Below, piece by piece: positions 36,434-62,288 of a DNA stretch of 64,000 nucleotides (position 1 is its first letter; each line of letters begins with the position of its first letter). The stretch comes from Pseudomonas viciae (lineage in GTDB: Bacteria; Pseudomonadota; Gammaproteobacteria; Pseudomonadales; Pseudomonadaceae). Made by a program: the position numbers and the translations under genes. The stretch is taken from NCBI RefSeq assembly GCF_004786035.1, contig NZ_CP035088.1, forward strand, positions 5,344,001 through 5,408,000, read 5' to 3'. A model generated the notes under the pieces. It was not told the DNA's origin, did no database searches, and was given only the letters and a program-made list of their open reading frames with translations.

Positions 36434-36470
36434 ATCGCTTTCCACAATCCGAGGTATCGCTGGAGAAGAT
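36434..36470. promoter_or_regulatory. Nod-box-like operator, block 4
   Basis: ATC-N9-AAT at 36434-36448 and ATC-N9-GAT at 36456-36470, start to start 22 bp, the same architecture as the three blocks at 56144, 57663 and 60879 (11 of 12 fixed bases kept). The distance to the start codon (158 nt) equals that of the block before the dioxygenase gene (159 nt). Confidence 0.55.
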
Positions 36471-38143: not shown

Positions 38144-38159
38144 TTGGCAATCCTCGTAA

Positions 38160-39176: not shown

Positions 39177-39203
39177 GATGATTTCCTTCGATCAGTGGAG
39201 GGG

Positions 39204-40214: not shown

Positions 40215-40313
40215 GTCGCTAACCTCGCAATCGGGTATCAGCCATTGATTGACTGACACCCTACGAGGCGCGCACCACGCCGAATACTGCTGGGGATCGA
40301 AAGCAGCTATCGC

Positions 40314-44556: not shown

Positions 44557-44619
44557 GTTCGACTCCTCAATCAGTTGGCGAAACGCGACAGCGGGTAAAG
44601 ATGGATTCATGAAAAAACC

Positions 44620-45576: not shown

Positions 45577-46613
45577 CACGGGGTACCCACTGACTGCTCG
45601 GCGGCGATCAATCGGCGCAGAACCCGTCGGCAACGCACGGCCCCGGCATCGACTGGCAGCAACACAGGGTTGAGGCCGAGCAGATCAACCTCGCCAATCT
45701 GGCGCTGTTGTGCCTCGACCATGGGTTTGTCTTCACCGGCGAAAATGCCGATCAACATGTTCTGGATGAAGGCATTCAACTGCTCATTGTGCTGCTCGAA
45801 ATTGCGCGTATTGGCGAAGAAGTAATGGGTATTCGCCGCGTCCTGCGGGGTCATCAGATGCAGGTTCCATGTCACGGGCCCCTCCTCCCTCGGGCGCCCT
45901 GGCGCAGTGGCGCCGCTGCCCAGCAGCATCAGGCCAGGGGCGTGCCAGATGACCTCGGCCCACACGTCCGCTCGAGTCGGGTCTTCAAGATGAGCGCCGA
46001 AAGCCGGCGGGGGAACGTCATCAGGCGCCCACCAACTGATGCGCACGCGATCGTTGGGCAACTCCTCGATGCTGGCGCGCGTGCGTGACAACGCTCCCCC
46101 ACCGAGCGTATCGGGGTGCAGGAAATCAACGTGGCTCAGGTCCATGATGTTGTCGGACAGCAGCTCGTAGTGCGCGCGGGTTGGCAAATACCCATGTCCC
46201 TTGGCATGGGGGAGTGCCTGCTCAAAAAAGGAAAAATCGGGGATCAGCGCATCGCTGGCCAGGGCCGGGTCGCCAGGCCAGACCCAGATCGCCCCATGGC
46301 GCTCAACGGCGGGGAAGGAACGAACACAGGCGGCCTTGGGGATATTCCCATCGCCGTGGGGATTGTCCGTACATTGGCCACTGCCATCGAAACGCAAGCC
46401 GTGATACGGACACTGAACGCTGTCGCCGACGATCTTGCCCATGTGCAGCGGGGCAAAACGGTGAGGGCAGCGATCAGCCAGAGCCTGGAGGGTGCCCTGG
46501 CTGTCGCGAAAGAACACAATGGGGCGCTCGACAATGGTTCTGCCCAGCATCCCCCCTGGCGCCAGCTCGTCTGCCCACCCAGCGATGTACCAGGTGTTGA
46601 GCAAATAACTCAT
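45576..46613 (-). CDS. VanA-like Rieske oxygenase (aromatic O-demethylase type)
   Basis: 345 residues. Rieske centre C49-x-H51 ... C68-x2-H71 ([22 protein letters not shown]) and mononuclear iron motif [14 protein letters not shown]. The size and split with a VanB-type reductase are those of vanillate and dicamba O-demethylases, so removal of a methoxyl group is the best guess; sequence is not close enough to name it vanA. GAGGAG before ATG 46613 and a CA motif upstream. Confidence 0.88.
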
Positions 46614-46626
46614 GATGTTCTCCTCG

Positions 46627-46637
46627 TTGTTCTTATT
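46627..46637 (-). promoter_or_regulatory. CA motif (Hfq/Crc site) before the Rieske oxygenase
   Basis: AATAAGAACAA on the minus strand is a perfect AANAANAANAA 13 nt before the ATG, in the 49-bp gap after the MFS gene. Confidence 0.65.
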
Positions 46638-46662
46638 TTGATAAAACGTCGAATGGGCCAGA

Positions 46663-47865
46663 TCAGCGCTCAGGGTCCACGGCGACAGAGGCGGGAAAAG
46701 CTGCCCCGCGGCCACGCAACCGAATGCATGCCAAGGCCACCAGTATTTGGAAGGCCGCAACGATCCCCAGCGCAGCAGGCAAAGCGCTGCTCACCCCACC
46801 GGTAATCGCCAGCACCACCAGCGGGCTGGCGAACTCACCGGCAAAGAACATCGCCGTGAAGCCGCCGGCGGCGCGACCACGCTGCTGGAAGTCGATCTGG
46901 GCCATGATCCAGGTGAGCAGAGTCGGCATCATCAAGCCGATGCCCAGGCCGTTGATCAGCACGGCGATCACCACCCATCCATGACTGTCGGCCACCGCCA
47001 GCAACCCGCCACCGATACCGGCCGCGACGAAGGCCAGGAGCACCTGTCGGTACGCCGCTACCCCCCTGAACAGACGGAAACTCAGGGCGCCGACCAGCAC
47101 GCCGAACTGACTGGCGCCCATGGTCATGCCGATCTGCTGCGACCCTTCGACATGCAGCAGATTGAGCAGGTAACCGACTTGTACCGGCACGATAAACAGG
47201 CTCAAGCCGGCCAGGAATGACAGGGCATACAACGGTGCCAGGGGGCGCCAGGGGAATGCCCTCCTCACCGCCGTTGTCGCCGTGACGACATGTGCGCGTG
47301 GCTCCCACAGCAACCAAAGCATCAGTGGCAGGAACACCAGCCCCACCCCATACAGGGCGAACGGGGTGCGCCAGCCGTGCTCGCCGAGCACGCCGCCGAC
47401 GGAAATGAAAATCGCCGCCGACAACGAGGTCGCAACCATTTGCAGGGCGAACATGCGTTCACGTCGCGCGCCGCTGTAGTAGTCGCCCATCATCGTGGTG
47501 CAACAGGTCATGATCGCCGCCTCGGCCACGCCGATACCGGCGCGGCTGATAACGATGACCTGCAGCGACTCCAACCAGAGCGGCAACACGCCACAGACGG
47601 TGTAGAGAAACATCGCGCCGATCAGCAATGGCTTGCGCCCGAGCCGGTCGGCGATGATCCCGGCCACGGGTGCCAACAGCGCAATCATCAACGCCGGGAG
47701 CGTCAGGGCAATGGGCACCAGCACGGCCACACCCGGTGTATCCGCGAAGTGCTCCTGCATCCGCGGCAGTATGGGGGCCAGCAGCACCGCACCGAGCACC
47801 GGCAGGCAACTGCCGAGCAACAGCAACAACGACTGTGGCAAACCGGCCTGGCGTTCAACACTCAT
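46663..47865 (-). CDS. MFS transporter
   Basis: 400 residues with 12 hydrophobic segments and the loop motif GIIADRLGRKPLLIGAMFLY. Most like drug/proton-antiport or aromatic-acid MFS carriers. Placed between the Rieske oxygenase and the RND genes, it may import the aromatic substrate or export a toxic product. Its ATG overlaps by 11 nt the 38-codon open frame at 47855-47971, which suggests coupled translation. Confidence 0.87.
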   Translation of the reverse strand: MSVERQAGLPQSLLLLLGSCLPVLGAVLLAPILPRMQEHFADTPGVAVLVPIALTLPALMIALLAPVAGIIADRLGRKPLLIGAMFLYTVCGVLPLWLESLQVIVISRAGIGVAEAAIMTCCTTMMGDYYSGARRERMFALQMVATSLSAAIFISVGGVLGEHGWRTPFALYGVGLVFLPLMLWLLWEPRAHVVTATTAVRRAFPWRPLAPLYALSFLAGLSLFIVPVQVGYLLNLLHVEGSQQIGMTMGASQFGVLVGALSFRLFRGVAAYRQVLLAFVAAGIGGGLLAVADSHGWVVIAVLINGLGIGLMMPTLLTWIMAQIDFQQRGRAAGGFTAMFFAGEFASPLVVLAITGGVSSALPAALGIVAAFQILVALACIRLRGRGAAFPASVAVDPER

Positions 47866-47971
47866 CGTCCACCTCCGATGCTTGGGCTGCGCAGAACGCC
47901 ATGCCGAAGGCGCTCAGGCCGGCTATAAGGTCAAGCCATAGAGGCTGCTGGAACAGATACATACGAGGCAT
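47855..47971 (-). CDS. Possible 38-residue membrane or leader peptide
   Basis: A short frame beginning MPRMYLFQQPLWLDLIAGLS and ending EVDDEC. It has AAAGGAC 7 nt before its ATG, a perfect CA motif upstream, one hydrophobic helix (about 11-30), and a stop overlapping the MFS start. Because the MFS gene has only a weak ribosome site of its own (GGAGGTGGACG lies inside this frame), translation of the peptide may open the MFS start. Not recognised; could be a micro-protein or a coupling leader. Confidence 0.5.
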   Translation of the reverse strand: MPRMYLFQQPLWLDLIAGLSAFGMAFCAAQASEVDDEC

Positions 47972-47982
47972 GGCAACGTCCT

Positions 47983-47993
47983 TTCTTGTTGTT
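47983..47993 (-). promoter_or_regulatory. CA motif before the 38-codon frame and MFS gene
   Basis: AACAACAAGAA on the minus strand is a perfect AANAANAANAA. It begins in the stop codon of the RND gene and ends 11 nt before the small ATG. Confidence 0.6.
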
Positions 47994-50520
47994 ATGGCGC
48001 GACCGGATTAGCCGCCGCAGAGACTGTTTTCTTGCACGCTGAATGCTGCACCCTGGTTACCTGCTCGGCGGTGACGGGCACCTGCGGCACACTCGTCAGG
48101 CCATGGCTTTCATCCCAGGGTTGGTGCTCGGCCTGTCCCTTGCACACCCGCTTGCTTGGCAACAGGAAGTGGGCCAGGGCCGGCAACAGAACCAGCGCAC
48201 CGACCATGTTCCAGACGAACATGAAGGCCAGCAGCACGCCCATGTCAGCCTGGAACTTGATTGGCGAAAACATCCAGGTGGCCACGCCGATCGCCAGGGT
48301 CACACCGGTCAGCATCACCACCTTGCCGGTGGACAGCAGTGCCTGGTAATACGCCTGCGACAAGCTGGTGCCCTGGCGCATATGGCCGAGCAGGATGCTC
48401 ATCACATACAGCGCATAGTCGACGCCGATGCCCACGCCGAGGGCGATCACCGGCAGGGTCGCGACCTTGACGCCGATGTTCAGCCAGACCATCAGCGCCT
48501 CGCAGAGGATCGATGTGAGCATCAGCGGGATCACCGCACAAATCGTCGCGCGCCAGGAGCGGAAGGTGATCAGGCACAGCAAGATCACTGCGCCGTAGAC
48601 CCAGAACAGCATTTCGCGATTGGCCTGCTTGACCACGATATTGGTCGCCGCCTCGATCCCGGCATTGCCTGCGGCCAGGAGGAACTGGACCTCGTCGGTA
48701 TTGTTCGCCGCGGCGAACTGTTCGACGTGCTCCACCAGGCGGGTCAGCGTTTGCGCCTTGTGGTCGGAGAGGTAGACGTACAGTGTCAGCAGGCTACAGT
48801 CTTCGTTGTACAGCCCGCGCGGCGCCCCGGCGGTGACCATGTTGAGCATTGCCTGGTTGTTCTGCAGCTCGTACCACTTCGGGCTGCCTTCGCTGAGGCC
48901 GACCAGCATCCGGCGATTGAGCAGCGCCAGCGAATTGGTCGAATCAACCCCTGGCAAGGTGCGCAATTGCCAGTCGAGCGCATCGACCTTGCGCAGGATG
49001 TCGTAACGCGAACAGGCGCTGGCGGGCGTCTTGATCATGACCGCGAACAGATCGCTGCTGGCGCCGTAATGATGGGTAAGAAACGCATCATCCTGGTTGT
49101 AGCGCGAGTCGGCCCGCAGCTCGGGTGCGCCCGCATCCAGATCACCGATTTTCAATTGCAGGCTGACCACGAAGCCGGCGGTAGCCAGTGCCAGGCTCAG
49201 CGCAATGCACAATGCAGCCCAGCGACGCTGGGTGAACAGGTCGAGGAAACGCCAGAACCCGTGGCGACTCTGGCCAGCTTGTTCAGCGTGCTCGCTTTTC
49301 AGACTCAGTCGCGCAGCGTGGCGGCTGACACCAACATAGGAGAGCAGTACCGGCAGCAGGATTAAATTGGTGAAGATCAGCACGGCCACGCCAATGCTGG
49401 CGATCATCGCCAGATCCTGGATCACCTGGATCTTGATGATCATCAGCACCGCAAAGCCGACCGCGTCGCAGAGCAGCGCGGTGAGACCGGCGAGAAACAG
49501 GCGGCGGAAAGTGAAACGCGCGGCGACCACACGGTGCATGCCCCGACCGATGTCTTGCATGATGCCGTTCATCTTCTGTGCGCCATGGCTCATGCCAATG
49601 GCAAACACCAGGAACGGCACCAACACCGAATAGGGATCCAGTTGATAGCCCAGCAGCGGCAGCAGGCCGAGCTGCCAGACCACCGCCACCAACGAGCAGA
49701 ACACCACCAGCAAGGTGCTGCGGATGCAGCGGGTGTACCAGTAGAGCACCACGGCGGTGATCAGAATGGCCACGGCAAAGAACATCAGGATCTGCCGCAG
49801 ACCGGCGATCAGGTCACCGATTTTCTTGGCGAAACCGGTGATGCGAATGTCGATGCTATCGCTCTGGTATTGGCTGCGCAGCGACTCCAGTTGTTGCGAC
49901 AGCCTGGTGTAGTCCAACGGTTGGCCGTCGGGGGTGCGCTGCAGCAGGGGCACATGGATGATGCTCGATGCCTGGTCGAACGCCACCAACTGGCCGATTT
50001 CGTTGGACAGTTGCACATTGCGTCGCAGTGCCGCGAGGCTGGCGGCGCCGCCATCGTAGTTATCCGGAATGACTGGCCCACCGTCCAGGCCTGCTTCGGT
50101 CACCGCCACCCAGCGCGTGGCCGGCGTCCACAGCGACTTCATGTACGCACGGTCGACACCGGGCAGCAGATAGATCTTGTCGCTCAACGCCTGGAGGGTC
50201 TTGAGGTAGGCGCTGTCGTAGATGTCGCCCCGCTTGTTGACCACCGCGATGCGCACCGCGTTACCCAGCCCGCTCAACTCCTTCTGGTGCTCAAGGTAGT
50301 TGGCGATATAGGGGTGATGGGTGGGGATCATTTTTTCGAAACTGGCGTTGAGCTCGACACGACTGGACTGCCAACCCAGCACCAGCGTGGTCGCCAGGCA
50401 CAGCAGCAACACCCATAGGCGATGGTTGAACAGTGCTCGCTCAAGCACCGAGCCGGAACGCGGATCAAAGTCATCGAACGCATTCGCAGGAGACTGGGGG
50501 AAATTACCAGGGGACGTCAT
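47992..50520 (-). CDS. RND/MMPL family transporter (HAE3-like)
   Basis: 842 residues, two repeats of one membrane helix, a large periplasmic loop and a five-helix bundle. Seen: HRLWVLLLCLATTLVLGWQS helix 1, VPFLVFAIGMSHGAQKMNGI and its later counterpart VIALGVGIGVDYALYVMSIL, the second helical half. These RND proteins move hydrophobic compounds. It belongs with the YCF48-like, DUF1329 and DUF1302 genes directly upstream. ATG 50520 follows GTGAGG; the YCF48 stop is 4 nt away. Confidence 0.88.
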   Translation of the reverse strand: MTSPGNFPQSPANAFDDFDPRSGSVLERALFNHRLWVLLLCLATTLVLGWQSSRVELNASFEKMIPTHHPYIANYLEHQKELSGLGNAVRIAVVNKRGDIYDSAYLKTLQALSDKIYLLPGVDRAYMKSLWTPATRWVAVTEAGLDGGPVIPDNYDGGAASLAALRRNVQLSNEIGQLVAFDQASSIIHVPLLQRTPDGQPLDYTRLSQQLESLRSQYQSDSIDIRITGFAKKIGDLIAGLRQILMFFAVAILITAVVLYWYTRCIRSTLLVVFCSLVAVVWQLGLLPLLGYQLDPYSVLVPFLVFAIGMSHGAQKMNGIMQDIGRGMHRVVAARFTFRRLFLAGLTALLCDAVGFAVLMIIKIQVIQDLAMIASIGVAVLIFTNLILLPVLLSYVGVSRHAARLSLKSEHAEQAGQSRHGFWRFLDLFTQRRWAALCIALSLALATAGFVVSLQLKIGDLDAGAPELRADSRYNQDDAFLTHHYGASSDLFAVMIKTPASACSRYDILRKVDALDWQLRTLPGVDSTNSLALLNRRMLVGLSEGSPKWYELQNNQAMLNMVTAGAPRGLYNEDCSLLTLYVYLSDHKAQTLTRLVEHVEQFAAANNTDEVQFLLAAGNAGIEAATNIVVKQANREMLFWVYGAVILLCLITFRSWRATICAVIPLMLTSILCEALMVWLNIGVKVATLPVIALGVGIGVDYALYVMSILLGHMRQGTSLSQAYYQALLSTGKVVMLTGVTLAIGVATWMFSPIKFQADMGVLLAFMFVWNMVGALVLLPALAHFLLPSKRVCKGQAEHQPWDESHGLTSVPQVPVTAEQVTRVQHSACKKTVSAAANPVAP

Positions 50521-50524
50521 AACC

Positions 50525-51628
50525 TCACTCCGAAGCGGCAGTGGACGGCTGCGCAATACGCTGCAGCCCGGTGAAACCGGCAACGACCAGGCTGCCATCG
50601 GCGGCCTCGATCAGACTTGAAACAGGCTTACCCAAGGGCTTGCCCAGTGGCAGCAGCGCCGCCCCGGTCTGCTCACCGTTGAGAAACAGTGCGCCGCCCT
50701 GGTTGACCAGCAACACCTGGCCGTCGGCCAGGCGGGTGGCGTCGTTGAAGGCAATCGGCATGGGGACTGACAGGCGCTGGAAGCTTTCGCCACCGTCATT
50801 GGAGATAAAGGCATTGCCCCTCAGGCCGCCAACCAGCAAGGCGCCATCGGCGCGGCTCTGCAAGGTGAAAAAACTGCCTTCATAGGGGCTTTCCAACTGG
50901 CTGAACGAAGCCGCGTCGTCATCCGAGCGCGCCAGGTAACCCTGCTCGCCCGCCAGGAACCAGCGCGCGCCTTGGTGACTGATGGCGTACAAGTGCATCC
51001 CGTTCGGGTTGGCGATGTGCCCCATCAGCGACTGCCACGTGGCACCGCCATCGGAGGTCCACAGCGCCAGCCCGTAGGCGCCGACGATCAGCCCGTGTTG
51101 GGCATCAATGAACTCGAACGCCAGGAAGGGTTTGTCCGCCCCATCGGCGACGAGACGCTCGGCACTTTGTACGCGTGCCAATGCGTCATCCGGGTTGGCA
51201 GCGTTGGGCTGGTCAGCCTTCGCTGCGTCCAGTTCGAGCTGGGCCGCACGGGCGCCGTCGAGTTGCAGCGTCCAATGCTCGCCACCGTCACGCGTGGCCA
51301 ATACCACGCCCGCGTGACCGACGGCCCAGCCCTTTTGCGCATCAACGAACTGCACCGCCGTCAGGCTGACCGAAACCGGCACCGAGGCCTGACGCCAGCT
51401 TTGCCCATTGTCGTCGGAGAGCAGCACCAGGCCGCGCTCGCCCACGGCCACCAGACGTGTGCCGGCACGCGCCAGGTCGATCAATACGCTGTTCTGCGCA
51501 GCCGGTACCCGCATGGCCGGGGTACTGAGCGGCACGTCCACCGCAGCCGGCCCGGCCAGGCACACGCTCGTGGCGAAGGGCAAATACAGGGCCAAGAGCA
51601 CAGTGCCCGCCTGACTGATTCTGTTCAT
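50525..51628 (-). CDS. YCF48-like beta-propeller protein, exported
   Basis: 367 residues. Signal peptide MNRISQAGTVLLALYLPFA, then repeated bladed motifs with SDDNGQSWRQ, TRDGGEHWTLQ, TSDGGATWQSL and SNDGGESFQRL, the Asp-box/YCF48 pattern of sialidase-like propellers. Such proteins in this gene order are thought to help the RND pump and porin-like partners. Periplasmic. Tightly linked to the RND gene. Confidence 0.88.
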   Translation of the reverse strand: MNRISQAGTVLLALYLPFATSVCLAGPAAVDVPLSTPAMRVPAAQNSVLIDLARAGTRLVAVGERGLVLLSDDNGQSWRQASVPVSVSLTAVQFVDAQKGWAVGHAGVVLATRDGGEHWTLQLDGARAAQLELDAAKADQPNAANPDDALARVQSAERLVADGADKPFLAFEFIDAQHGLIVGAYGLALWTSDGGATWQSLMGHIANPNGMHLYAISHQGARWFLAGEQGYLARSDDDAASFSQLESPYEGSFFTLQSRADGALLVGGLRGNAFISNDGGESFQRLSVPMPIAFNDATRLADGQVLLVNQGGALFLNGEQTGAALLPLGKPLGKPVSSLIEAADGSLVVAGFTGLQRIAQPSTAASE

Positions 51629-51699
51629 AACCTACCTCGGAAAAACACTCGCACCTCAAGGGCAAGCCGACAGGCCTGCCCTTCACGCTCAGCTCAGAC

Positions 51700-53064
51700 T
51701 CAACGCACGCCGCGCCCGGCCATCGCCGCTGGCGAGAACTCGGAGGCCTTGTAGCGATCGACCGCGTGATACTGCTCCGGCAATCCGGCGTAGACGTTCT
51801 GGATAAACCACGCCCCCGAAGTCAGGTCATAAAAACCGGCAGACAGTTGCACCACGGCTGGCAAGTCGGGCAGTACGGAAGGCAGGGACCAGAGGGTCTT
51901 GGCCAGTTGGCCGCTGGCGTCCCAACGGTCGCCGAGCAGGGCTTGCCAGCTGTCTTCGTCGAGGTAGTAGCGACCTTTGGGCAACTGGTGACGCTTGCCG
52001 GCGGCCAACGTCGACTCGACTACCCAGACGCGGTGCAACTCCCAGCGCACGTAGTCAGGATTCAGATGGTGCTTGGCGAACAGGTCTTGCGGCTGGGCGG
52101 CGGCCTGCATCTTGTTGGTGTTGTAGGGAACATACATTTCCTGCTTGCCCACCAGTTTCCAGTCGAACCGGTCCGTACGTCCCTGCCACACGAACAGTTC
52201 GTCGAAGGACATGACCCCGGCAGTGGACGGCGTAGGGGTATCGCAGCAAGCGTTGGGCAGCGTGCGCACCCGGCGCTGGCCGCTCAGATAGACATGGGCC
52301 TGGGATTTGTCGCCGTTGATGTTCTCGCGCCCCAGGATCTGCTCGCCGGCACGAATCGCCGGGCCGAGATTGACAAAGCGCACCTGCCAATAATCACCCG
52401 AGTAGTTTTCAGGGCTGCCTTCCTCGAAGTAGTAGGGCATTTCCTGGGTCAACAGGCCGTCGCTGGTCATCACCTGGTTACCGTCGGCCGTCATCAGATA
52501 ATGGCGAAAATGCCCCGCCACCGAGGTGCCGCGCCAGTTCAGCAAGTGATTCCAAATGGCTTCGGTACCATTCTGGGGAATCGGAAACGGGATCCCGCCA
52601 AAGGCACCGTCAGGGATCAGGCCGGCGCTGCTGTCGACCAGTTTGGCGCGGGTCGCATTCTTGAACGTGTTGTCATAGACCCACTGTGGCGCGGCCGCCG
52701 TGCGCCGGGTCGGATAGACGTCGATGCGATAGGTGTCCGGGAAACGCTTGAACAGCTCCTTGGTGCCGTCGCTGAGCTTGTCGGCGTACTTCGCCACGTT
52801 CTGCGCGGTGATGCTGAACAAAGGTTTGTCCGCGGCAAACGGATCGCCGCGCTTGCCGCCCGGTGTGTAGGCCGGATCAACCTTGGTGTAGCCACCGTCC
52901 CAGGCCGGAATGCTGCCGTCGGCATTACCGGCTTTCTCGGCACCGAAGGGCGTCAGGGTCTTGCCCAGCGCGGCCGCTTGTTCGGCGCTGGCGGCCAAGG
53001 CCATCGGCGCGGCGGCGGCCAGCAGGGTTAAGCACAAGGCCTTTAGAGTGAACTGAATGGTCAT
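51700..53064 (-). CDS. DUF1329 outer-membrane/periplasmic protein
   Basis: 454 residues with a signal peptide (MTIQFTLKALCLTLLAAAAP). Core features: GKTLTPFGAEKAGNADGSIPAW, PFPIPQNGTEAIWNHLLNWRG, YLSGQRRVRTLPNACCDTP and RYYLDEDSW. DUF1329 belongs to the LolA/LppX-like lipid-carrier folds by what I recall. It is nearly always next to DUF1302. ATG 53064 with AGAGG upstream; the frame extension is a TTG. Probable carrier of a hydrophobic compound across the periplasm. Confidence 0.9.
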   Translation of the reverse strand: MTIQFTLKALCLTLLAAAAPMALAASAEQAAALGKTLTPFGAEKAGNADGSIPAWDGGYTKVDPAYTPGGKRGDPFAADKPLFSITAQNVAKYADKLSDGTKELFKRFPDTYRIDVYPTRRTAAAPQWVYDNTFKNATRAKLVDSSAGLIPDGAFGGIPFPIPQNGTEAIWNHLLNWRGTSVAGHFRHYLMTADGNQVMTSDGLLTQEMPYYFEEGSPENYSGDYWQVRFVNLGPAIRAGEQILGRENINGDKSQAHVYLSGQRRVRTLPNACCDTPTPSTAGVMSFDELFVWQGRTDRFDWKLVGKQEMYVPYNTNKMQAAAQPQDLFAKHHLNPDYVRWELHRVWVVESTLAAGKRHQLPKGRYYLDEDSWQALLGDRWDASGQLAKTLWSLPSVLPDLPAVVQLSAGFYDLTSGAWFIQNVYAGLPEQYHAVDRYKASEFSPAAMAGRGVR

Positions 53065-53076
53065 GCGCAAATCCTC

Positions 53077-54756
53077 TTAGAACGTGGTCTTGACGGAGAA
53101 AGCCAGGTAATCCCGGTCCTTCAGCGACTGCTTGTAATTGAACTGGTTGGCGGCGTTGAGGCTGGTGTCCTCGGGCCCGTAGAAGTGGGTGTAGGTCAGC
53201 CCCACAGTCACTTGGTCCAGGTAGGTGGCGGAGACACCGATGTTCATATCCCCCCCTCTGTCGGGGCCGAACCCGCTGATCACAGCCGACTTGCCCATGG
53301 GGAAATAACTGATGCCCAGCGGCACGCTGATATCCACGCCCGGGAAGAACTGGCGATAGGTGGGCGTGTAAACCAGTTTCAGGCCCAGGGCGTCGTCGGT
53401 GGCGTTAGGATCAAGGGCTGCGCGGTTCTTGGTCACGGCGAGCAGGCGGTTCCAGGCCACTTCCCCTGTCAGGCTGGCTTCATTGGCGACGAAGGAAGGG
53501 CCCAGCGATGCCAGGACGTTGAGGTTGACGTGAGCCGTACGGCCGACGGCGTACAGGGCATCATCGTTGTTGTCCGCCTCGACGCCCGGCAGGACGGTCT
53601 GGGCGTTGGACACCAACGGCATGTTCCAGCGCATCGATGCCTCGCCGGCAAAGCTGTACTCGTCCACGGAGGTGGCGAAACTGGCCCCCAGGACACGGAT
53701 ATCTTCCGGATAGACCCAGGAGTACTCGCCGACTTTGCCAGTACCGAAATCCGGCCCGGTGGCATTCGGCTTCAAGTACAACGTTGGGGTTTTCTCGTGA
53801 TATTGGAGCGCGTACAGACCGTAGTCCGTCGTCCCGGTGTTGTACTTGAGCTGCAGGCCGCCCTGACCGGAGCTCCTGGCTTTCTTGTCCTTGCCATGGA
53901 AAAACGCAGCCGGGCTATTGGCATTACCGCCCAGGAAATCCGGAAACGGTCCGCCAGTGATCAGCCGTTCATTGCCGTCGCCGATGGTATCGCTGGTGGA
54001 GAAGTAGCTGCCGGCGCCCGGCAAGCGAGTGGCTTCCCACTCCAACTGGTAGAAGGCGCCCAATGACACATCGTCGGTCAGTTGGTAGGCGGTCGAGAGC
54101 TGGTTGACCGGCCGGGTGATTTCCTTGAATTGGGTGTTGGGCACCGATTGCGCCTTGACCACATCCACCGGTGCCATGGCACCGGCAATACCGTTGCCGC
54201 CGAAAAACAGGCTCTCGCCCCAGATCAGGCCGTGGCGCCCGGCGCGAATCGATAAGGCACGGTCGGCCAACTCACCGTTCCAATAGACAAAGGCATCCAG
54301 CAGTTCACCGTCACCACCGTGCAGTTGACGGGTGTCGCTGGTGAACTCGTCGAAGCCCACCGAACGTTGGTTGGCACTGGCCGCGTCGTTGTTGTCGTTG
54401 CGGTCCTGGTAGACGGTGTCGTACCACGCGGCACCGCTCAAACGGGCACCGAAGTTGTGAAAACCAATGTCCAGTTCGGAAAGAATATCCAGCCGATTGG
54501 AGATCAACCCCTTGCCGAAGTTGTGATCGCCGTCATTCTGGTTCAGCGCCGTCTGGCCCTCGCTGAGTTTGCTGCTGGGCTCCTTCAGGCGCCAGGCCGC
54601 GCTGTACTTGAGCGTGTTGTCCCAGCGCAAACTGAGATCGGGATTGCCGGTATCGATCTGAAAGGCCTGGGCAACCGAAGCGCCAAGCCCCAGGCTGGCC
54701 GCCAGGGTCAGGGTGAAGGGGACGCGCCGCGACGCAGCGATCTTGCGAGTAGCCAT
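53077..54756 (-). CDS. DUF1302 outer-membrane beta-barrel-like protein
   Basis: 559 residues. Signal peptide (VPFTLTLAASLGLGASVAQA), then FQIDTGNPDLSLRWDNTLKY and many alternating-residue strands; the last residues DYLAFSVKTTF end in aromatic F, the outer-membrane barrel signal. DUF1302 partners DUF1329 and RND proteins in uptake or export of hydrophobic substrates. 12-nt gap to DUF1329. A CA motif lies before the ribosome site. Confidence 0.9.
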   Translation of the reverse strand: MATRKIAASRRVPFTLTLAASLGLGASVAQAFQIDTGNPDLSLRWDNTLKYSAAWRLKEPSSKLSEGQTALNQNDGDHNFGKGLISNRLDILSELDIGFHNFGARLSGAAWYDTVYQDRNDNNDAASANQRSVGFDEFTSDTRQLHGGDGELLDAFVYWNGELADRALSIRAGRHGLIWGESLFFGGNGIAGAMAPVDVVKAQSVPNTQFKEITRPVNQLSTAYQLTDDVSLGAFYQLEWEATRLPGAGSYFSTSDTIGDGNERLITGGPFPDFLGGNANSPAAFFHGKDKKARSSGQGGLQLKYNTGTTDYGLYALQYHEKTPTLYLKPNATGPDFGTGKVGEYSWVYPEDIRVLGASFATSVDEYSFAGEASMRWNMPLVSNAQTVLPGVEADNNDDALYAVGRTAHVNLNVLASLGPSFVANEASLTGEVAWNRLLAVTKNRAALDPNATDDALGLKLVYTPTYRQFFPGVDISVPLGISYFPMGKSAVISGFGPDRGGDMNIGVSATYLDQVTVGLTYTHFYGPEDTSLNAANQFNYKQSLKDRDYLAFSVKTTF

Positions 54757-54884: not shown

Positions 54885-56009
54885 TCAGATGGGCTCTGCC
54901 GTGACCTCGAGCATCCGCCTGACCAGGCCGATCCGGTCGAAACTGCTGTCGTGGGCCATTTCCTTGTCACCGGCCAGCACCGAGCTTTCGCTGATGAATT
55001 TGCAGCGCTCGTATCGGCGCGCCATGAAGCGTTCGAGCTGCTGTTCGACGCTGCCACCGGCGACCAGCTCTTCGCCGAGCACGACAGCATCTTCAATGGC
55101 CATGCCAGCGCCCTGGCCCAGGTGCGGCGTCGTGGCGTGCACCGCGTCGCCAATCAGCACGACACGGCCGCGGTACCAGGGCTCACTGACGAACACCACC
55201 TCCAACGGCTTGTAGACCACCTGGTCACTGTCGAGGATCTGCTCGCGCAGTTCACCGATCAGCCCGGTAAAACCACTCAGGCGCTGGCGCATCTGGGTCG
55301 CCAGCGTGGCGGCATCCATCCGGGGGTTGGCGGGTTCATGGGAGGTGACGAACATGTACATCTGGTCACGACCCAGCGGCACCAGTCCGGCATTGCCAGC
55401 AGGGCCTTGGAAGGTAGCCAGGTGATCGATTCCAGCGGCGCGTGGAAAGTTGTAGCGCCACACCGACTGGCCGGTGAAACGCGGCCGGTACTGCTCGCCG
55501 AACAGCAAACCGCGCATTTGCGAGTACAGGCCATCGGCCCCCACGACCAGGTCGTAACAACCGCGACTGCCGTCGGTGAACAGCACATCAACGCCCTCGT
55601 CCACCTGCTCCAGGGTTTGCACGCTCAGGCCCAGGCGAATCGAGGCACCCAGGGCAATGGTGGTTTCGCAGAGGACTTGATGCAGGGCCAGGCGCGAGAT
55701 GCCGACGTTGGCCGGGTATTCGGGGCCGGCCAGGCGCTGGCCGGGTATTCGCGCCAGCTGTTCACCCGCTGTGGTATTGATGGTCACATCCTCGAACGCG
55801 TAGGCAGCATCCAGGTAGCCGTCCAACACACCCAACTTGGCCATCTCACGCACGACGTTGCTCTGCTGGATGATGCCGACGCCGTAGACTGTCCATTGCG
55901 TCTTGAGCTCGACAAGTTCGACTTCGATGTCCTGGCGACGCAAAGCGATCGCGGCGCACAGACCACCGATACCACCACCGACGATAAGCACTTTTTTCAC
56001 TGCTTTCAT
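54885..56009 (-). CDS. FAD-dependent aromatic hydroxylase (FdeE-like)
   Basis: 374 residues, group A flavoprotein monooxygenase. Seen: VLIVGGGIGGLCAAIALRRQ at the N-terminus, VGADGLYSQMRGL (DG motif), RVVLIGDAVHATTPHLGQGAG (GD motif). Start: ATG 56009; the frame continues to a GTG at 56039, but those codons spell the A-rich CA motif and have no ribosome site. Together with the Rieske ferredoxin, VOC dioxygenase and NodD-like regulator it recalls FdeE, which hydroxylates the naringenin A-ring in Herbaspirillum (family knowledge from memory). A nod-box-like block lies 135 nt upstream. Confidence 0.85.
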   Translation of the reverse strand: MKAVKKVLIVGGGIGGLCAAIALRRQDIEVELVELKTQWTVYGVGIIQQSNVVREMAKLGVLDGYLDAAYAFEDVTINTTAGEQLARIPGQRLAGPEYPANVGISRLALHQVLCETTIALGASIRLGLSVQTLEQVDEGVDVLFTDGSRGCYDLVVGADGLYSQMRGLLFGEQYRPRFTGQSVWRYNFPRAAGIDHLATFQGPAGNAGLVPLGRDQMYMFVTSHEPANPRMDAATLATQMRQRLSGFTGLIGELREQILDSDQVVYKPLEVVFVSEPWYRGRVVLIGDAVHATTPHLGQGAGMAIEDAVVLGEELVAGGSVEQQLERFMARRYERCKFISESSVLAGDKEMAHDSSFDRIGLVRRMLEVTAEPI

Positions 56010-56022
56010 GCTTGTCTCACTC

Positions 56023-56036
56023 TTATTCTTGTTATT
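56023..56036 (-). promoter_or_regulatory. CA motif, longest in the window, before the flavin hydroxylase
   Basis: AATAACAAGAATAA on the minus strand repeats AAN without a break for 14 nt, 13 nt before the ATG. Confidence 0.7.
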
Positions 56037-56143
56037 CACGCAAGCTTTCTGCCGGAGCGATCCGAGGCCTCACTACCGGCTGTTTCTGCACGCATTCGCT
56101 ACCGCGTTGTGCTCACTTTCTCGGCAAAGCAGGCGTTTGACTA

Positions 56144-56180
56144 ATCGCATGTAGGGATACGATGTATCAGCAACCGCGAT
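56144..56180. promoter_or_regulatory. Nod-box-like operator, block 1
   Basis: ATC-N9-GAT at 56144-56158 and again at 56166-56180, 22 bp apart, all 12 fixed bases kept. The surrounding 47 bp match block 2 at 37 positions. It lies upstream of the flavin hydroxylase and overlaps the last codons of the Rieske ferredoxin gene. Confidence 0.75.
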
Positions 56181-56550
56181 ACGTTGATTCAGGTGCACAC
56201 GCCTCCAATTGACCCGCTTCGAGCACCAGCCAATCAGCCTCCGCATGCCATTGCAGAGCACTCAGGCTTTCCCCCAGGCACGGTCCGTAGATGCACAGGC
56301 CACTGTCCGGAAGGAACCGGGCACCGTGGGCGTAACAGACAATCTGGCTGCCATCGACACTGAGAAAACGATCCTTGCGGTACTCCAGGCGCACCTGCAG
56401 ATGCGGGCAACTATTGCGATAGACCCGCACCTCGCCGCCATGGCGCAGGGCAAACACGCTGTCCTTCCCTGTGTCCAGAGGATCGAATCCGCGGGCCTGC
56501 CCTTCGAGCAATTCATCCAGGCGACATAGCGCAAGGGCGTCGAGACTCAT
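56167..56550 (-). CDS. Rieske [2Fe-2S] ferredoxin-like protein (FdeD-like)
   Basis: 127 residues. Rieske ligands C-x-H and C-x2-H are seen as SCPHLQVRLEY and CYAHGARF, 20-odd residues apart, with no oxygenase domain. A stand-alone electron carrier or redox chaperone for the ring-cleaving dioxygenase, as small ferredoxins are for extradiol enzymes. Start ATG 56550 with GGAG upstream, 15 nt after the dioxygenase stop. The operator (block 1) for the next unit overlaps its 3' end. Confidence 0.83.
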   Translation of the reverse strand: MSLDALALCRLDELLEGQARGFDPLDTGKDSVFALRHGGEVRVYRNSCPHLQVRLEYRKDRFLSVDGSQIVCYAHGARFLPDSGLCIYGPCLGESLSALQWHAEADWLVLEAGQLEACAPESTYRGC

Positions 56551-56565
56551 GGACAAACTCCGCAC

Positions 56566-57504
56566 TCAGGCCTGCTTGGGCGGCGGACCGCTCGGGAACC
56601 ATTTTTCCCGGGAAGTGAACAGGAACAGCTGCGAGTTATCCGCCGACAAAGGCGCCTGACGCGCTTGCCAGGCATCATCGTGCTTGTCCATGTCGGCGTC
56701 GTATTCGATGTGGCAGCCCAATGGGCTGTTGAAGTACCAGAACCAGTTGGAGCCAAAGAGGTGACGGCCTGGGCCCCAGAAGCTGGTCCAGCCTTGCTGT
56801 TCGAAGCGTCGCCCGGCCAGCAGCACTTCCGTGCCGCTGCCCATGTGAAAGGTAAAGTGCTCGCAACCCTTCATGTGCGGTGGCGTCTGGATCATGAACA
56901 GGCAATGATGGTCATCGGAACCGGCTGGACGCATGAACGGGCCAGCACCAACGAAGGTATCGGTGGTCATGAAGCCCAGGCGCTTGTAAAAGGCCTCGGC
57001 CTTCAGCGCATCCGGCACGAAATACACCACATGAGACAGGGTGCGCGGCAGGGCCTGCATATCGGGGGTGATACCCGGTTGATTGACCGGGCGCTGGGGG
57101 GCATGGCCCGGCGCATTGGTCAGGTCGGCTGGCGCGCTGTACGGACGCCGCACACTGATCTGAAAACCAATGGCGAACCCCATATCGTCAACACTGTGCA
57201 CGGAGCCATCGGCACCACGGATCACCAGGCGATCGCGCCCCAGCTCATCGGCGATGGCCTCGAGATCCGCACCGCTGGCCACGCCATAGATGGTTTCACG
57301 AATCGAGGGTGCAGGCCCGATGGCCGCCGGCAGACTGGCATCGTCAGCCCGGCGGATAATCACGGCAGTGCCGTCGAGGGCTTCAAAACGACCGCCCTCG
57401 CTGTCGACATCGACAGGTTGCAGGCCGTAGTCACGCAGGCAATGGGTACAGGCTTGAATGTCGTCGACGCCAAAAATCAAGGCATCAAGGCCAATGATGT
57501 TCAT
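56566..57504 (-). CDS. VOC extradiol ring-cleavage dioxygenase (FdeC-like)
   Basis: 312 residues, two-domain type I extradiol dioxygenase. Iron ligands H158 (TLSHVVYF), H216 (GCEHFTFH) and E267 (GCHIEYD) are all in place in the C-terminal domain; the N-terminal domain (LDALIFGVDDIQACTHCLRD) is the degenerate copy. It should open a catechol-type ring next to its hydroxyls. Divergent from the NodD-like regulator with a nod-box-like block between them, and followed by the Rieske ferredoxin gene. Substrate inferred as a trihydroxy flavonoid-like A-ring. Confidence 0.87.
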   Translation of the reverse strand: MNIIGLDALIFGVDDIQACTHCLRDYGLQPVDVDSEGGRFEALDGTAVIIRRADDASLPAAIGPAPSIRETIYGVASGADLEAIADELGRDRLVIRGADGSVHSVDDMGFAIGFQISVRRPYSAPADLTNAPGHAPQRPVNQPGITPDMQALPRTLSHVVYFVPDALKAEAFYKRLGFMTTDTFVGAGPFMRPAGSDDHHCLFMIQTPPHMKGCEHFTFHMGSGTEVLLAGRRFEQQGWTSFWGPGRHLFGSNWFWYFNSPLGCHIEYDADMDKHDDAWQARQAPLSADNSQLFLFTSREKWFPSGPPPKQA

Positions 57505-57519
57505 TGAGTTACCACTCCA

Positions 57520-57530
57520 TTGTAATTATT
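57520..57530 (-). promoter_or_regulatory. Imperfect CA motif before the dioxygenase
   Basis: AATAATTACAA on the minus strand matches AANAANAANAA with one mismatch; GGAG follows. Confidence 0.4.
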
Positions 57531-57662
57531 CAGCGCAGGCCAGCACCCCGCTTACGGGAGCCGTGCCAGGCGAAGCGCTGCCGAGGCGGGTCTTGGAGTC
57601 GATCAAGCGTCACGGCCAACCGACTGTGGGTCGATACTGAAGTGGCGAAAACGCACTGACTA

Positions 57663-57699
57663 ATCGCTTGTCGGGATGCGACCTATCGGTAAACGCGAT
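57663..57699. promoter_or_regulatory. Nod-box-like operator, block 2 (divergent promoter)
   Basis: ATC-N9-GAT at 57663-57677 and 57685-57699, 22 bp apart, 12 of 12 fixed bases. Sits in the 327-bp gap 57505-57831 between the dioxygenase and regulator genes, 159 nt from the dioxygenase ATG and 133 nt from the regulator ATG. No other gene is in the gap. Confidence 0.78.
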
Positions 57700-57831
57700 A
57701 CCTGGCTGCGCAGCGCCAAACGACGTGAAAAATCGCAAAGACATCGGTCGACGCACCTCTTCACGGGGCTTGACGCCGCGATAGGAAGGTCGGAAGGTAT
57801 TTACAAAATAAATACAAAAATCGAGACCGCC

Positions 57832-58743
57832 ATGCGTTTTAACCACCTGGATCTCAACCTCCTGGTGGCGCTTGATGTGTTACTGGAAGAGCAGAACATC
57901 ACCCGCGCCGCCGAACGCCTGCACATGACCCAATCCGCCACCAGCGGCGTACTGGGCAGGCTGCGGGTCTATTTCGAAGACGAACTGCTGGCGCAGGTCG
58001 GGCGCAAGATGCAGCCCACGCCCTATGCCCGTGAACTGGCGGCGCCAGTGCGCCAGATACTGCTGACGATCCAGTCCTCGATCACCGCCAAACCGGTGTT
58101 CGACCCCGCCACCAGCAAGCGCCATTTCCGCCTGATCACCTCGGACTATCTGATCAGCGTCCTGTTTGCCCGGGTGATCCAGAAGATCTCCCTGGAAGCT
58201 CCGCACATCACCTTCGAGCTGCTTGGCCCCGGCGACACCTCAACCGAGCTGCTGATGCGCGGCGAGGCCGACATGATGATCGTGCCTGAGCGCTATCTCA
58301 TTGAAGGCCACCCATCGCAGTTACTGTTCGAAGAAGAGCACGTTTGCGTTGTGTGGGACGGCAACACCCAAGTGGGCGATAGCATCACCCTCGATCAGTA
58401 CATCGAGATGGGTCATGTCTCGGTGATTTTTGGTCGCAACCGACAACTGAGCGTCGAAGAATGGCTGATGGCCCAGTACGGTTTCACGCGTCGCATGGAA
58501 GTGGTGACCCACGACTTCAACACCTTGCCGCAGTTGATCGTCGGCACCCAACGCGTCGCCACCATGCTCCAGCGCATGGCCAGGCTCTACGCCAACTACC
58601 TGCCGCTGCGCATCTTGCAGCCGCCGGTGAAAATCCCGGTGATGCGTGAGTTCATGCTCTGGCATCGCACCATGGACGGGGATCCGATGCACCGTTGGCT
58701 GCGAGCGAAAATCAGTCAAATCATCAATGAGCTGGAGCAGTAG
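57832..58743 (+). CDS. NodD/FdeR-like LysR transcriptional activator
   Basis: 303 residues. The N-terminus MRFNHLDLNLLVALDVLLEE with ITRAAERLHMTQSATSG reproduces the NodD pattern (MRF-x2-LDLNLLVALD), and the effector domain keeps RHFRLITSDYLISVLFARVI, FELLGPGDTSTELLMRGEADMMIVPE and the late GTQRVATMLQRMA. NodD and FdeR answer to flavonoids and bind ATC-N9-GAT pairs; four such blocks are found here. ATG 57832 was chosen because upstream codons lie in the operator region. It converges with the chemoreceptor gene. Confidence 0.88.
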   Translation: MRFNHLDLNLLVALDVLLEEQNITRAAERLHMTQSATSGVLGRLRVYFEDELLAQVGRKMQPTPYARELAAPVRQILLTIQSSITAKPVFDPATSKRHFRLITSDYLISVLFARVIQKISLEAPHITFELLGPGDTSTELLMRGEADMMIVPERYLIEGHPSQLLFEEEHVCVVWDGNTQVGDSITLDQYIEMGHVSVIFGRNRQLSVEEWLMAQYGFTRRMEVVTHDFNTLPQLIVGTQRVATMLQRMARLYANYLPLRILQPPVKIPVMREFMLWHRTMDGDPMHRWLRAKISQIINELEQ

Positions 58744-58766
58744 CCGCTCCCTTGCCCGGAACCGGG

Positions 58767-60698
58767 TCAGGTGCGGAAATGCCCGACGGCCGCCTTGAGT
58801 TCACCGCTAACCTGTTGCAGGTCGGCCGTTGAGACTTGCAGTTGCTGGCTTTCCCTGGCGCTGCCCTCGGTCACTTCGCGCACCCGCGTCATACTCTGGC
58901 TGACTTGCTCGGCCACCACACTCTGCTGCTCGGCGGCTGCGGCAATCTGCTGGTTCATCTGCTCGATGCTGGACACCGCCCGGGTGATCCGCGCCAGTGC
59001 CTGGGAGGCTTGTGCGGCAAGCACCACCGTTTCATCGCTCAACACATGGCTGCCTTGCAAGCGCTCGGCGGCTTGTTGGGCAACGCTGCTCAGACGAACG
59101 ATCAACCCTTCGATTTCCGTGGTCGAACGCTGTGTACGCCGTGCCAGGCCGCGCACCTCGTCGGCGACCACGGCGAAACCGCGACCATGCTCGCCAGCCC
59201 GCGCCGCCTCGATGGCGGCGTTGAGCGCCAGCAGGTTGGTCTGCTCGGCCACCGCCTTGATGACATCGAGCACGCCACCGATCGCTGCGCTCTCCACCAG
59301 CAACGAGCGCATGGCTTGCGCACAACCACTCATCTCCACCGCCAGATGGTCGATCTTGCCCCCCGCCTGGCGCACCAGTTCATCACCCTCACGCGCCTGT
59401 TCGTCGGCATGCGCCACCGCTGCGCGGGCCTCACCCGCGTTGCGGGCAACCTCCTGCGCCGTGGCGGCCATCTGTTGCATGGCGGTGGCGGCCAGTTCGG
59501 TTTCCTGGCGTTGGTGCTCGACACCACGGCTGTTGCTCTGGGTCACTTCGGCCAGGCTGCCGGCCATGCCGTTGAGCGAGCCGACCCCACGGTCGATGCG
59601 CCCGACCAATCCGCGCAGGCTGCCCAGCATGCTGCTCACCGCGCCCAACAACTGGCCCAGTTCATCGCGACGAACACGGCCTGACGGCGGATCGCTCAGA
59701 TCTCCCGCTGCCACCCGCTGGACCAGCTGCACGGCCTGGCGCAGCGGCTGCACTATCAACTGACGGATCAGCAGGCTGGCCCCGATGCCCAAGGCGAGCG
59801 CCAGAAAAGTGATCAAGCCCAATTGGCGATCGGCGCGGCGATTATCATCCAGCACCGCCTGCCTTTGCTGTTCATCGGCCAGGGCCAGCAGCTTGCTCAC
59901 CTGCTCGGTTTGCGCGTTCATCGCCGCACTGCTTTGCGCGCTTTGCCCACGGCTGGCGACAAACTCGACGAAGGCCTTGCGGTAGTCGCCCAAGGCTGTG
60001 CTCGCCTCCTGCAGCGACTCGCCTTGCTGCTCGCCAAGATCGAGCGCCTGCATGGCGGCCAGCAGGTCACTCATGCTCATTTCCCAGTCGCTGCGGTAAC
60101 GCTCCTCACCATCGAGCGAGTAGTACAGTTCGCTGTCACGCAGCTTGGCGAGTTTGTCGCGCAATGCAGCGGTCTGCTCAAGCAGCACCATCTGATTGCT
60201 GGTCGGGGGTGTGCCCTGCCCCAACCGGGTATTCAGCGCATCCAGTTGATCGAGAAACAGCAGGGTAAAGCTATCGCCTGCCGTCTGCGCCAGCGTCTGC
60301 ATGCGCAAGCGGGCTTCGCGAGCCCGACGCAACGAATCGGCATAGCCGAGAAACTGCTCCAGGTAAGCACTGACCGCCGTGCGCACCGTGGCGCCCGATG
60401 CGCTATTGGCCGGTTCCTCATCAAGTTGCTGGTTCAGCTTGCCGATTGTCTCGCGCACCTGCTCCAGGCCCTGCGGAGCAAGATCCAGGGCAAATGCCTT
60501 TTCGGCGATGCGGGCACGCAGGATCAATGCCTGGATCGACGACTCCTGACGCGATTGCTCACCGCGCTGCTGCAACACACCCAGAGAGTGAAAAGCCGTG
60601 GCCGCCACCCCCAGGGTAACCAGCAACACCAGGCCAAAACCCAGCGACAGCTTGGCACCCACCGACAGATTGCCAAGCACACGGCTCAGTACAGGCAT
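58767..60698 (-). CDS. Methyl-accepting chemotaxis protein, possible HBM-type sensor
   Basis: 643 residues. Membrane helix 1 (about 12-35), a long all-helical periplasmic domain of roughly 250 residues ([20 protein letters not shown] onward), membrane helix 2 ([19 protein letters not shown]), HAMP ([20 protein letters not shown]) and the signalling hairpin tip [20 protein letters not shown]. The sensor length fits the helical bimodular class that binds organic acids, but I cannot confirm the fold. ATG 60698 has GGAGG upstream. Next to the regulator, it may steer cells to the substrate or its products. Confidence 0.9.
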
Positions 60699-60878
60699 GT
60701 CCAATTCCTCCCACGGTAGTGGAAACACATCCTGCCCTTGGCGCCCAGGCTGATCGCAGTGCCGGAATTAGACTCACTCATTTGCCGATACCTTGTTCTT
60801 GTTGTTGTGCGCGCCCGGGACTCCAGCCAACGGCGCGGTGTAGCGCCAACTCTAGTGAGTCGTACCTCAACGACACCA

Positions 60879-60915
60879 ATCGCATCCCGCGTTATGAGCA
60901 ATCGCAAAGTACGAT
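60879..60915. promoter_or_regulatory. Nod-box-like operator, block 3
   Basis: ATC-N9-GTT (60879-60893) and ATC-N9-GAT (60901-60915), 22 bp apart, 11 of 12 fixed bases. In the 432-bp gap 60699-61130 between the divergent chemoreceptor and hydrolase genes, 216 nt before the hydrolase ATG. The rest of the gap shows no gene. Confidence 0.62.
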
Positions 60916-61120
60916 GATAGGTATCTGGATTTGCTGCTTGATCTGTGAGTAGAAAACCCCTAGGCCAATGACACACATACGCTCCATCACCGTTCGCAAT
61001 ACCTCCCATCCCGACTTGCGATTGGCCAAACAATTGCCCTCCCCTTAGCCTGCTTCGAACCGCCAGGTCAGGCTGTCATCCGCTCCGGACCTGGCTGCCT
61101 GCCTTTGTTTGCACAAGGAC

Positions 61121-61130: not shown

Positions 61131-62288
61131 ATGTTCCGCTACTTCCCGACCAACTACGTGTGGAATCTTTCCGTCGACCTCGCCATTGAAATGGGCGCCC
61201 GCATCGGCGAAATCGAAGAAATGTGCGCGCCGCTGCAAGAGGCCGCCAAGCAGCCGGATGCCGCCGGCAGCAAGGCCTTCCGTGAAACCTGGGCGAAAAT
61301 GGCCGACAAGCTTTGCGGCTTGGCCGAGGAAGATGAAGCCAAAGGTCGAATGTTGTCAGCCGGCGAAAAATACAACCGCGCCGCGACCTATTACCTGAGC
61401 TGCGAACGCCTGCAGGCCCATGGCGCCCCTGGCCGTACGGAGCTGTACCAGCGCTTTTTACACACCTTCCAACGCGGTATCGAACTGGCGCAGGAAAACT
61501 GCGAGCGCGTTGAAATCCCTTACGAGGGCAAACACATTTCCGGTCTGCTGGTCCGTGCCGAAGGCGTCGGCGGCCCAGCGCCGATTCTGGTGCAGGTCAA
61601 CGGACTGGACTCCACCAAAGAAATGAAATACCGCGTTGGCCTGCCCGCCTGGCTGGCCAAACGTGGCGTGTCATCGTTGATCATCGACCAGCCTGGTACC
61701 GGCGAAGCCCTGCGCCTGCATAACCTGACTGCGCGCTTTGACAGCGAACATTGGGCCAGTCGAGTGGTGGACTGGCTGGAAACCCGCAGCGATATCGACG
61801 CCAAACGCATCGGCATGGAAGGCGTGTCGCTCGGCGGCTATTACTGCCCCCGCGCGGTAGCCTTCGAGCCGCGCTTTGCCTGCGGGGTAGTCTGGGGTGC
61901 CAACCATGACTGGCGTGATGTACAGAAGCGGCGCATGGAAAAAGAAGGCAGCTTCCCAGTTCCGCATTACTGGTCGCACGTAGCCTGGGTATGGGGCGCC
62001 AAAGACACCGATGAGTTCATGACCATCGCCGAGAATGTCCACCTGGACGGCATACTGGATCGCATCAAGGTGCCGTTCCTCGTCACCCATGGTGAGAAGG
62101 ACTCGCAGATTCCATTGAAGTGGGCGCACCGTACCTACGAGCAGTTGGTCAACAGCCCTAAGCGCGAGCTGAAAATATTCACCGAACGCGAAGGCGGCGT
62201 CCAACATTCGAGCTTCGATAACAGTATCAATGCCGGCCAGTACATTGCCGACTGGGTCGCTGAAGTGCTTGGAGGGCGGACTGCCTGA
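61131..62288 (+). CDS. Alpha/beta hydrolase of the dihydroxypseudooxynicotine-hydrolase type (C-C hydrolase)
   Basis: 385 residues: a helical N-terminal cap (1-130) and an alpha/beta-hydrolase core. Nucleophile elbow GVSLGGYYCPRAVA with Ser, acid in THGEKDSQIPLKWA, His in REGGVQHSSFDN, oxyanion residues near VQVNGLDSTKEMKY. This cap-plus-core form is that of 2,6-dihydroxypseudooxynicotine hydrolase and fungal Ayg1, which cut C-C bonds beside carbonyls. After ring cleavage of a hydroxy-flavanone such a step is needed. Preceded by operator block 3 and a CA motif. Confidence 0.82.
   Translation: MFRYFPTNYVWNLSVDLAIEMGARIGEIEEMCAPLQEAAKQPDAAGSKAFRETWAKMADKLCGLAEEDEAKGRMLSAGEKYNRAATYYLSCERLQAHGAPGRTELYQRFLHTFQRGIELAQENCERVEIPYEGKHISGLLVRAEGVGGPAPILVQVNGLDSTKEMKYRVGLPAWLAKRGVSSLIIDQPGTGEALRLHNLTARFDSEHWASRVVDWLETRSDIDAKRIGMEGVSLGGYYCPRAVAFEPRFACGVVWGANHDWRDVQKRRMEKEGSFPVPHYWSHVAWVWGAKDTDEFMTIAENVHLDGILDRIKVPFLVTHGEKDSQIPLKWAHRTYEQLVNSPKRELKIFTEREGGVQHSSFDNSINAGQYIADWVAEVLGGRTA

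Follow-up and report, generated by a model that had tools for sequence, protein, structure and literature searches.

Phased nod-box-like operators and one NodD-like LysR regulator suggest a flavonoid-type catabolic regulon in Pseudomonas viciae

What does a relative of NodD, the regulator of rhizobial nodulation genes, control when its neighbours are genes of aromatic catabolism? A stretch of 64,000 nucleotides (nt) of Pseudomonas viciae (NZ_CP035088.1, positions 5,344,001 to 5,408,000; GCF_004786035.1), here called the window, encodes a NodD-like LysR-type regulator and carries repeated blocks of the form ATC-N9-GAT-N7-ATC-N9-GAT, three of which were read in an earlier note as tandem operators. 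We favour, at a probability of roughly 0.78, a flavonoid-type catabolic regulon run by this one regulator and made up of six units, including a gene for a chemoreceptor. The operators are real, and they number at least five, probably six.

We searched the window for the 12 fixed bases of this pattern, and identified perfect matches at 56144 and 57663, and matches with one mismatch at 60879, 60986 and 36434. The three blocks of the earlier note lie at the coordinates given for them and have the phasing described, two being perfect and the third (60879) having GTT for GAT. Each block is itself two ATC-N9-GAT pairs in tandem, and it was a misreading to place the blocks in tandem to each other; the count of three was too low, as the sites at 60986, 36434 and 34162 had been overlooked. 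The distances of 133-216 nt to the start codons are correct when ATG 56009 is taken as the start of the flavin hydroxylase; the listed open reading frame (ORF) begins at GTG 56039. The operators and the regulator gene are as follows.

34162..34198, plus strand: probable operator with two mismatches, 136 nt ahead of the EthD-domain gene (conservation)
36434..36470, minus strand: operator with one mismatch, 154 nt ahead of the second FAD monooxygenase gene (conservation)
56144..56180, minus strand: perfect operator ahead of the flavin hydroxylase gene and the genes downstream of it (pattern search)
57663..57699, minus strand: perfect operator between the divergent dioxygenase and regulator genes (pattern search)
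57832..58743, plus strand: NodD-like LysR-type regulator of 303 residues (Pfam HTH_1 and LysR_substrate)
60879..60915, minus strand: operator with one mismatch, ahead of the divergent chemoreceptor gene (presence in relatives and footprint of conservation)
60986..61022, plus strand: operator with one mismatch, 108 nt ahead of the C-C hydrolase gene (pattern and extended pattern)

The five window sites at up to one mismatch compare with 0.09 expected, and the eight at up to two mismatches (among them 34162, 40296 and 62745) with 1.07 expected; neither number was reached in any of 100 dinucleotide shuffles. The whole 6.70-Mb genome contains three perfect matches, two of them in the window. When one mismatch is allowed, the number rises to 14, and five of these fall within the 25 kb of the window from 36434 to 61022. 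The other nine look like background, their number being about as expected. The match at 40296-40332 stands directly ahead of the cyclodeaminase gene and overlaps the end of a LysR ORF.

We investigated the distribution of the operators in loci that encode a relative of the regulator, taking the best 80 of 94 as judged by similarity to it; gene names in these loci come solely from tblastn searches with 28 proteins of the window. In these loci, the pattern occurs 204 times without mismatch and 60 times with one, never inside a gene recognised by homology to window proteins, with at least one site in 76 of the 80 and a perfect site in 73. The sites occur between the regulator and dioxygenase genes (perfect 61 times, one mismatch six times), ahead of the flavin hydroxylase (perfect 55 times, one mismatch three times) and ahead of the hydrolase, where the counterpart of 60986 is found in all 12 loci with a regulator at least 95% identical. 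When the gap between the two pairs was varied from 0 to 19, perfect matches were found 204 times at gap 7, 11 times at gap 6, three times at gap 15 and never at any other gap; the loss of 22-bp phasing in homologous clusters, which the earlier note had named as evidence that would count against it, is thus not seen. Four loci additionally have perfect operators (L015 at 11082, L020 at 10612, L035 at 12154 and L050 at 9400) approximately 130-170 nt ahead of a gene for a protein of approximately 450 residues, which looks like an amidohydrolase and is a possible further regulon member.

From the relatives' loci we derived a longer, extended operator pattern and a weight matrix. At up to three mismatches, the extended pattern occurs at three places only in the genome, 56144, 57663 and 60986. 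Read toward the gene, the consensus is close to ATCGCGtttggCGATAc.TCgCATCCc.ActcgCGATTrGyCA, indicating that the orientation of the operator toward its target is kept. The final portion of this consensus might overlap with a weak -35 element.

For such a simple pattern in AT/GC-balanced DNA, chance might be invoked, since at one mismatch the pattern recurs nine more times in the genome, about the expected number, but the excess in the window and the presence of operators in 76 of the 80 loci make this explanation extremely improbable. For 56144, 57663 and 60986, it is refuted by the shuffles, the genome counts and the conservation.

The regulator was correctly recognised as NodD-like: its top PDB match is 9iib (E 1.3e-48), a NodD ligand domain, which is 100% identical over 204 residues to NodD of Rhizobium leguminosarum bv. 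viciae 248, whose gene adjoins nodABC. No paper on a NodD crystal structure was found in the literature searched. A single NodD-like regulator is present in the genome of the window, and its next paralogue there is 33% identical. We considered whether every LysR gene of this genome has such sites and rejected this, as the 400 nt ahead of each of eight LysR paralogues reach a best match of 4-5 mismatches only. A tree of 36 rows places the regulator in a clade of its own of 15 rows (support 96/99), beside a separate group formed by the seven NodD rows (100/99), the order of the deep branches not being settled by the tree. The regulator is thus rejected as a member of the NodD clade. It also lies outside the fde-type rows sampled, proxies standing in for FdeR that do not themselves form one group.

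We additionally examined the co-occurrence of regulator and operator in a sample of 398 genomes from the genus, defining the operator as the extended form with up to one mismatch and the regulator as a match at E 1e-100 or better. The extended operator was found in 54 genomes and a regulator match in 66, all 54 lying within the 66, and none of the 332 genomes without a regulator match has an extended operator. As the extended pattern was built from loci selected by the regulator, this association is partly circular. The regulator is very likely the partner of the operators. Several Pseudomonas also have a second NodD-type regulator, approximately 37% identical to the first and near DUF1329-type or other genes (L012 13713-14663, L020 12604-13614, L024 12164-13096 and L051 13048-13974), which has its own operator form, ATCGCAT....CGYTA....ATC.

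The pair of sites at 60879 and 60986 stands between the hydrolase gene and a divergent gene for a chemoreceptor.

58767..60728, minus strand: methyl-accepting chemotaxis protein (MCP) with a helical-bimodular-like sensor (Pfam MCPsignal and HAMP)

The sensor part of its fold model, which alone was used, matches the McpS ligand domain (TMt 0.80; low-confidence model, mean pLDDT 66), and relatives of the protein were found at 94-44% identity. Among the 12 loci with a regulator at least 95% identical, counterparts of both sites are present in all five near relatives with the MCP gene at this place (L001, L003, L004, L009 and L060), and all seven near relatives that lack it (L002, L005-L008, L010 and L011) have the hydrolase-side site only. 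Across six sequences of the interval between the two genes, two of 24 half-site columns are variable vs 207 of 408 others (p 3e-5); in this and the following footprints, only near relatives were compared and gapped columns were counted as variable. Of 14 loci elsewhere that carry a relative of the MCP gene, 12 have an operator no more than 400 nt away from it. Most likely, 60879 serves the chemoreceptor gene and 60986 the hydrolase, because the 60879 counterpart occurs only where the MCP does and its half-sites are kept. The earlier assignment of 60879 to the hydrolase must accordingly be corrected: the site tracks with the chemoreceptor gene in relatives, and it is 60986 that lies before the hydrolase.

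Conservation also bears on the two remaining sites. Of 14 loci examined, all but L172 (55% identical) have a counterpart of 36434, which stands 146-155 nt ahead of the gene in these 13, and its half-site columns are variable in two of 12 cases vs 278 of 360 other columns. A two-mismatch site at the place of 34162 is present in 10 of 10 relatives, and here the half-site columns are variable in two of 12 cases vs 304 of 335. It could be argued that only 56144, 57663 and 60986 work as operators, and that the conservation of 34162, 36434 and 60879 has a different cause; these three score below zero with the extended weight matrix, which the former three pass. We consider this unlikely, as the half-sites of the weaker blocks are kept while neighbouring columns change, and as a perfect operator occurs near MCP relatives in L015, L017, L019, L028, L031 and L050.

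The operators resemble rhizobial nod boxes in the ATC-N9-GAT-N7-ATC-N9-GAT phase and in the presence of several operators under one regulator, and the regulator shares with NodD the LysR-type domain architecture and 42-44% identity. A site with the same phase, at up to two mismatches, was found near six of seven nodD genes examined; the Microvirga locus (L140) has none, and in L081 gaps 5 and 8 are as good as gap 7. The two systems differ in the arms between the half-sites, which are of GCGAT type here and of ATCCAAACAATCGAT type in nod boxes, and in the targets, which are catabolic genes in the window. None of the nod gene families was found among the 30 ORFs of 27.4-64 kb searched against Pfam or NCBIfam.

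A broader reading would see in this phasing only the general arrangement of LysR proteins, two T-N11-A boxes spaced by two turns of the helix, with no special kinship to the nod box. T-N11-A, which has been put forward as a general LysR motif (PMC5002191), is indeed contained in ATC-N9-GAT, and the fde-type loci of other taxa match weakly. At gap 7, we found one mismatch in L137 and L153, two Bradyrhizobium plasmids, and two mismatches in a third (L154) and in Burkholderia anthina (L083). The eight remaining regions have three to five mismatches, with three in L084, L085, L087 and L142, and some of these eight are no better than shuffles. L083 has one mismatch at gap 3, and the same intergenic stretch of L137 and L153 is also perfect at gap 12, which weakens their gap-7 match; L137, L153 and L154 are near relatives. 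The paralogue regions of the same genome, with their 4-5 mismatches, and the six nodD loci that do have the phase nevertheless speak against a general LysR arrangement, which we regard as improbable.

The genes around the operators are of catabolic and transport types, as listed here with the family or structure matches on which their names are based.

34335..35069, plus strand: EthD-domain protein (Pfam EthD 1.3e-24)
35143..36279, minus strand: second FAD monooxygenase, of the same family as the first (PRK06847, 479 bits)
36674..40259, minus strand: succinate-semialdehyde dehydrogenase, DHDPS-family and ornithine-cyclodeaminase-family genes (family searches)
41225..54756, minus strand: probable remainder of the operon behind 56144, with DUF1302, DUF1329, YCF48, MMPL, MFS, VanA-like oxygenase and reductase, cupin, FAH hydrolase, epimerase and cyclase genes (family searches)
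54885..56039, minus strand: FAD-dependent aromatic hydroxylase with a putative IfcA/FdeE-like role (NCBIfam PRK06847, 499 bits; Pfam FAD_binding_3)
56167..56550, minus strand: Rieske ferredoxin-like protein (Pfam Rieske 4e-9)
56566..57504, minus strand: glyoxalase-fold extradiol dioxygenase, FdeC/IfcB-like (Pfam Glyoxalase)
61131..62288, plus strand: alpha/beta hydrolase, probable C-C hydrolase (best PDB match 2,6-dihydroxy-pseudo-oxynicotine (DHPON) hydrolase, 4.8e-21)

The genes of 41225..54756 lie on the same strand with gaps of at most 128 nt, consistent with a single transcript. DUF1302, DUF1329, YCF48 and MMPL form a transport set, and the VanA-like Rieske oxygenase (45576-46760) with its ferredoxin-type reductase (44620-45633) is perhaps an O-demethylase for methoxylated substrates. 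The dioxygenase matches 3b59 (1e-11) and 2,3-dihydroxybiphenyl dioxygenase (2.6e-7) in the PDB, and is 62.7-66% identical to VOC genes of similar clusters on five plasmids. No operator of their own was found at one mismatch for the genes of 36674..40259. In Bradyrhizobium elkanii, the succinate-semialdehyde dehydrogenase, DHDPS-family and cyclodeaminase gene types are grouped with VOC, Rieske and FAD monooxygenase genes. The plasmids L137 (8934-17158), L153 and L154 likewise hold VOC, Rieske, cyclodeaminase, DHDPS-family and succinate-semialdehyde dehydrogenase genes beside a LysR gene, with an FAD monooxygenase in addition in L137; these are the gene types of 35143-40259 and 56167-57504 in the window.

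The likening of this regulon to the published flavonoid pathways was borne out by the comparison. The ifc cluster of Variovorax and relatives comprises an FAD monooxygenase, a glyoxalase, a DHPON-type hydrolase and cupins for isoflavone degradation, and Pseudomonas is among the genera with IfcA homologues (PMC11069340). The fde genes of Herbaspirillum seropedicae include an FAD monooxygenase and a glyoxalase-type dioxygenase for the flavonoid A ring, adjoined by the NodD-like LysR gene fdeR (PMC10799723, PMC11069340). The combination of FAD monooxygenase, glyoxalase-type dioxygenase, hydrolase and cupin is found together in the window, and DHPON hydrolase, the best match of the window's hydrolase, is also the one named for the hydrolase of the ifc cluster (PMC11069340). 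As with FdeR, the regulator is divergent from a pathway gene with an operator between them, 57663 lying between 57504 and 57832; in contrast to FdeR, for which many T-N11-A boxes are described in one intergenic region (PMC10799723), there are at least five dispersed blocks. The window further differs from the ifc cluster in having two FAD monooxygenases, a VanA-like oxygenase and a chemoreceptor, and the Results section of the ifc paper describes neither an operator nor NodD-like control (PMC11069340).

An fde-like Pseudomonas cluster is already in print: Pseudomonas thivervalensis SC5 has one (CE140_08155-08295) with high identity to naringenin genes, and the account of it in PMC8515041 that we draw on names neither a regulator nor an operator. 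The locus of the P. thivervalensis type strain (L002) holds the cluster of the window, and the SC5 cluster is likely the same locus. The part of the literature that was searched yielded neither these operators nor a NodD-like flavonoid-catabolism circuit in Pseudomonas.

Flavonoid catabolism is a likely function of the gene set, judging by its homologues. With the same regulator and operators, the natural inducer and substrate might also be a different polyphenol, of plant or microbial origin, or a product formed downstream by ring cleavage, in place of an intact flavonoid. FAD monooxygenases, VOC dioxygenases and alpha/beta hydrolases are generic enzymes of aromatic degradation, and the presence of two different flavin hydroxylases along with a VanA-like oxygenase hints at more than a single substrate. 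The match of the regulator to a NodD ligand domain, and the sharing of the gene combination with ifc and fde clusters that are backed by mutant and enzyme data on flavonoids (PMC11069340, PMC10799723), nevertheless point to a flavonoid, and leave a different inducer with a minor share of the probability.

By homology, the flavonoid-type regulon would work as follows. The regulator (57832-58743) would sit on operators of two ATC-N9-GAT pairs 22 bp apart, and on binding a flavonoid or a close product would activate six units: the dioxygenase and Rieske genes with the regulator's own gene; the first flavin hydroxylase with the long transport and catabolism operon; the C-C hydrolase; the second flavin hydroxylase; the EthD gene; and the chemoreceptor. 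Oxidation and cleavage of the A ring would ensue, and the cell may in addition track the compound or a related one by chemotaxis.

Several observations weigh against this proposal, in addition to the matrix scores given above. In twelve of the 66 genomes, the regulator match is not accompanied by an extended operator, and in five of the twelve the regulator is 76-79% identical. At L065 and L070, a regulator of 75-76% identity occurs with neither cluster nor operator in the stretch examined. The MCP-like genes of L044 and L076 have no operator nearby, and disruption of the corresponding ifc hydrolase gene left daidzein degradation unaffected (PMC11069340).

If the proposal is true, Pseudomonas of a widespread, plant-associated group perceive flavonoid-type signals through a NodD-like protein and nod-box-like sites, and a NodD-like switch serves feeding, and perhaps chemotaxis, instead of symbiosis. 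We offer tentatively the further idea that the nod box predates nodulation, NodD and its phased ATC-N9-GAT operator having been recruited from flavonoid-catabolism circuits like this one; as part of the same idea, and equally speculative, one switch would govern the degradation genes together with a dedicated chemoreceptor, and the bacterium would thereby eat a plant signal as well as track it. The finding would define a regulon with six sites and a candidate inducible chemoreceptor, could supply a new biosensor pair, and would give a concrete route to ask whether the nodulation switch derives from a catabolic one.

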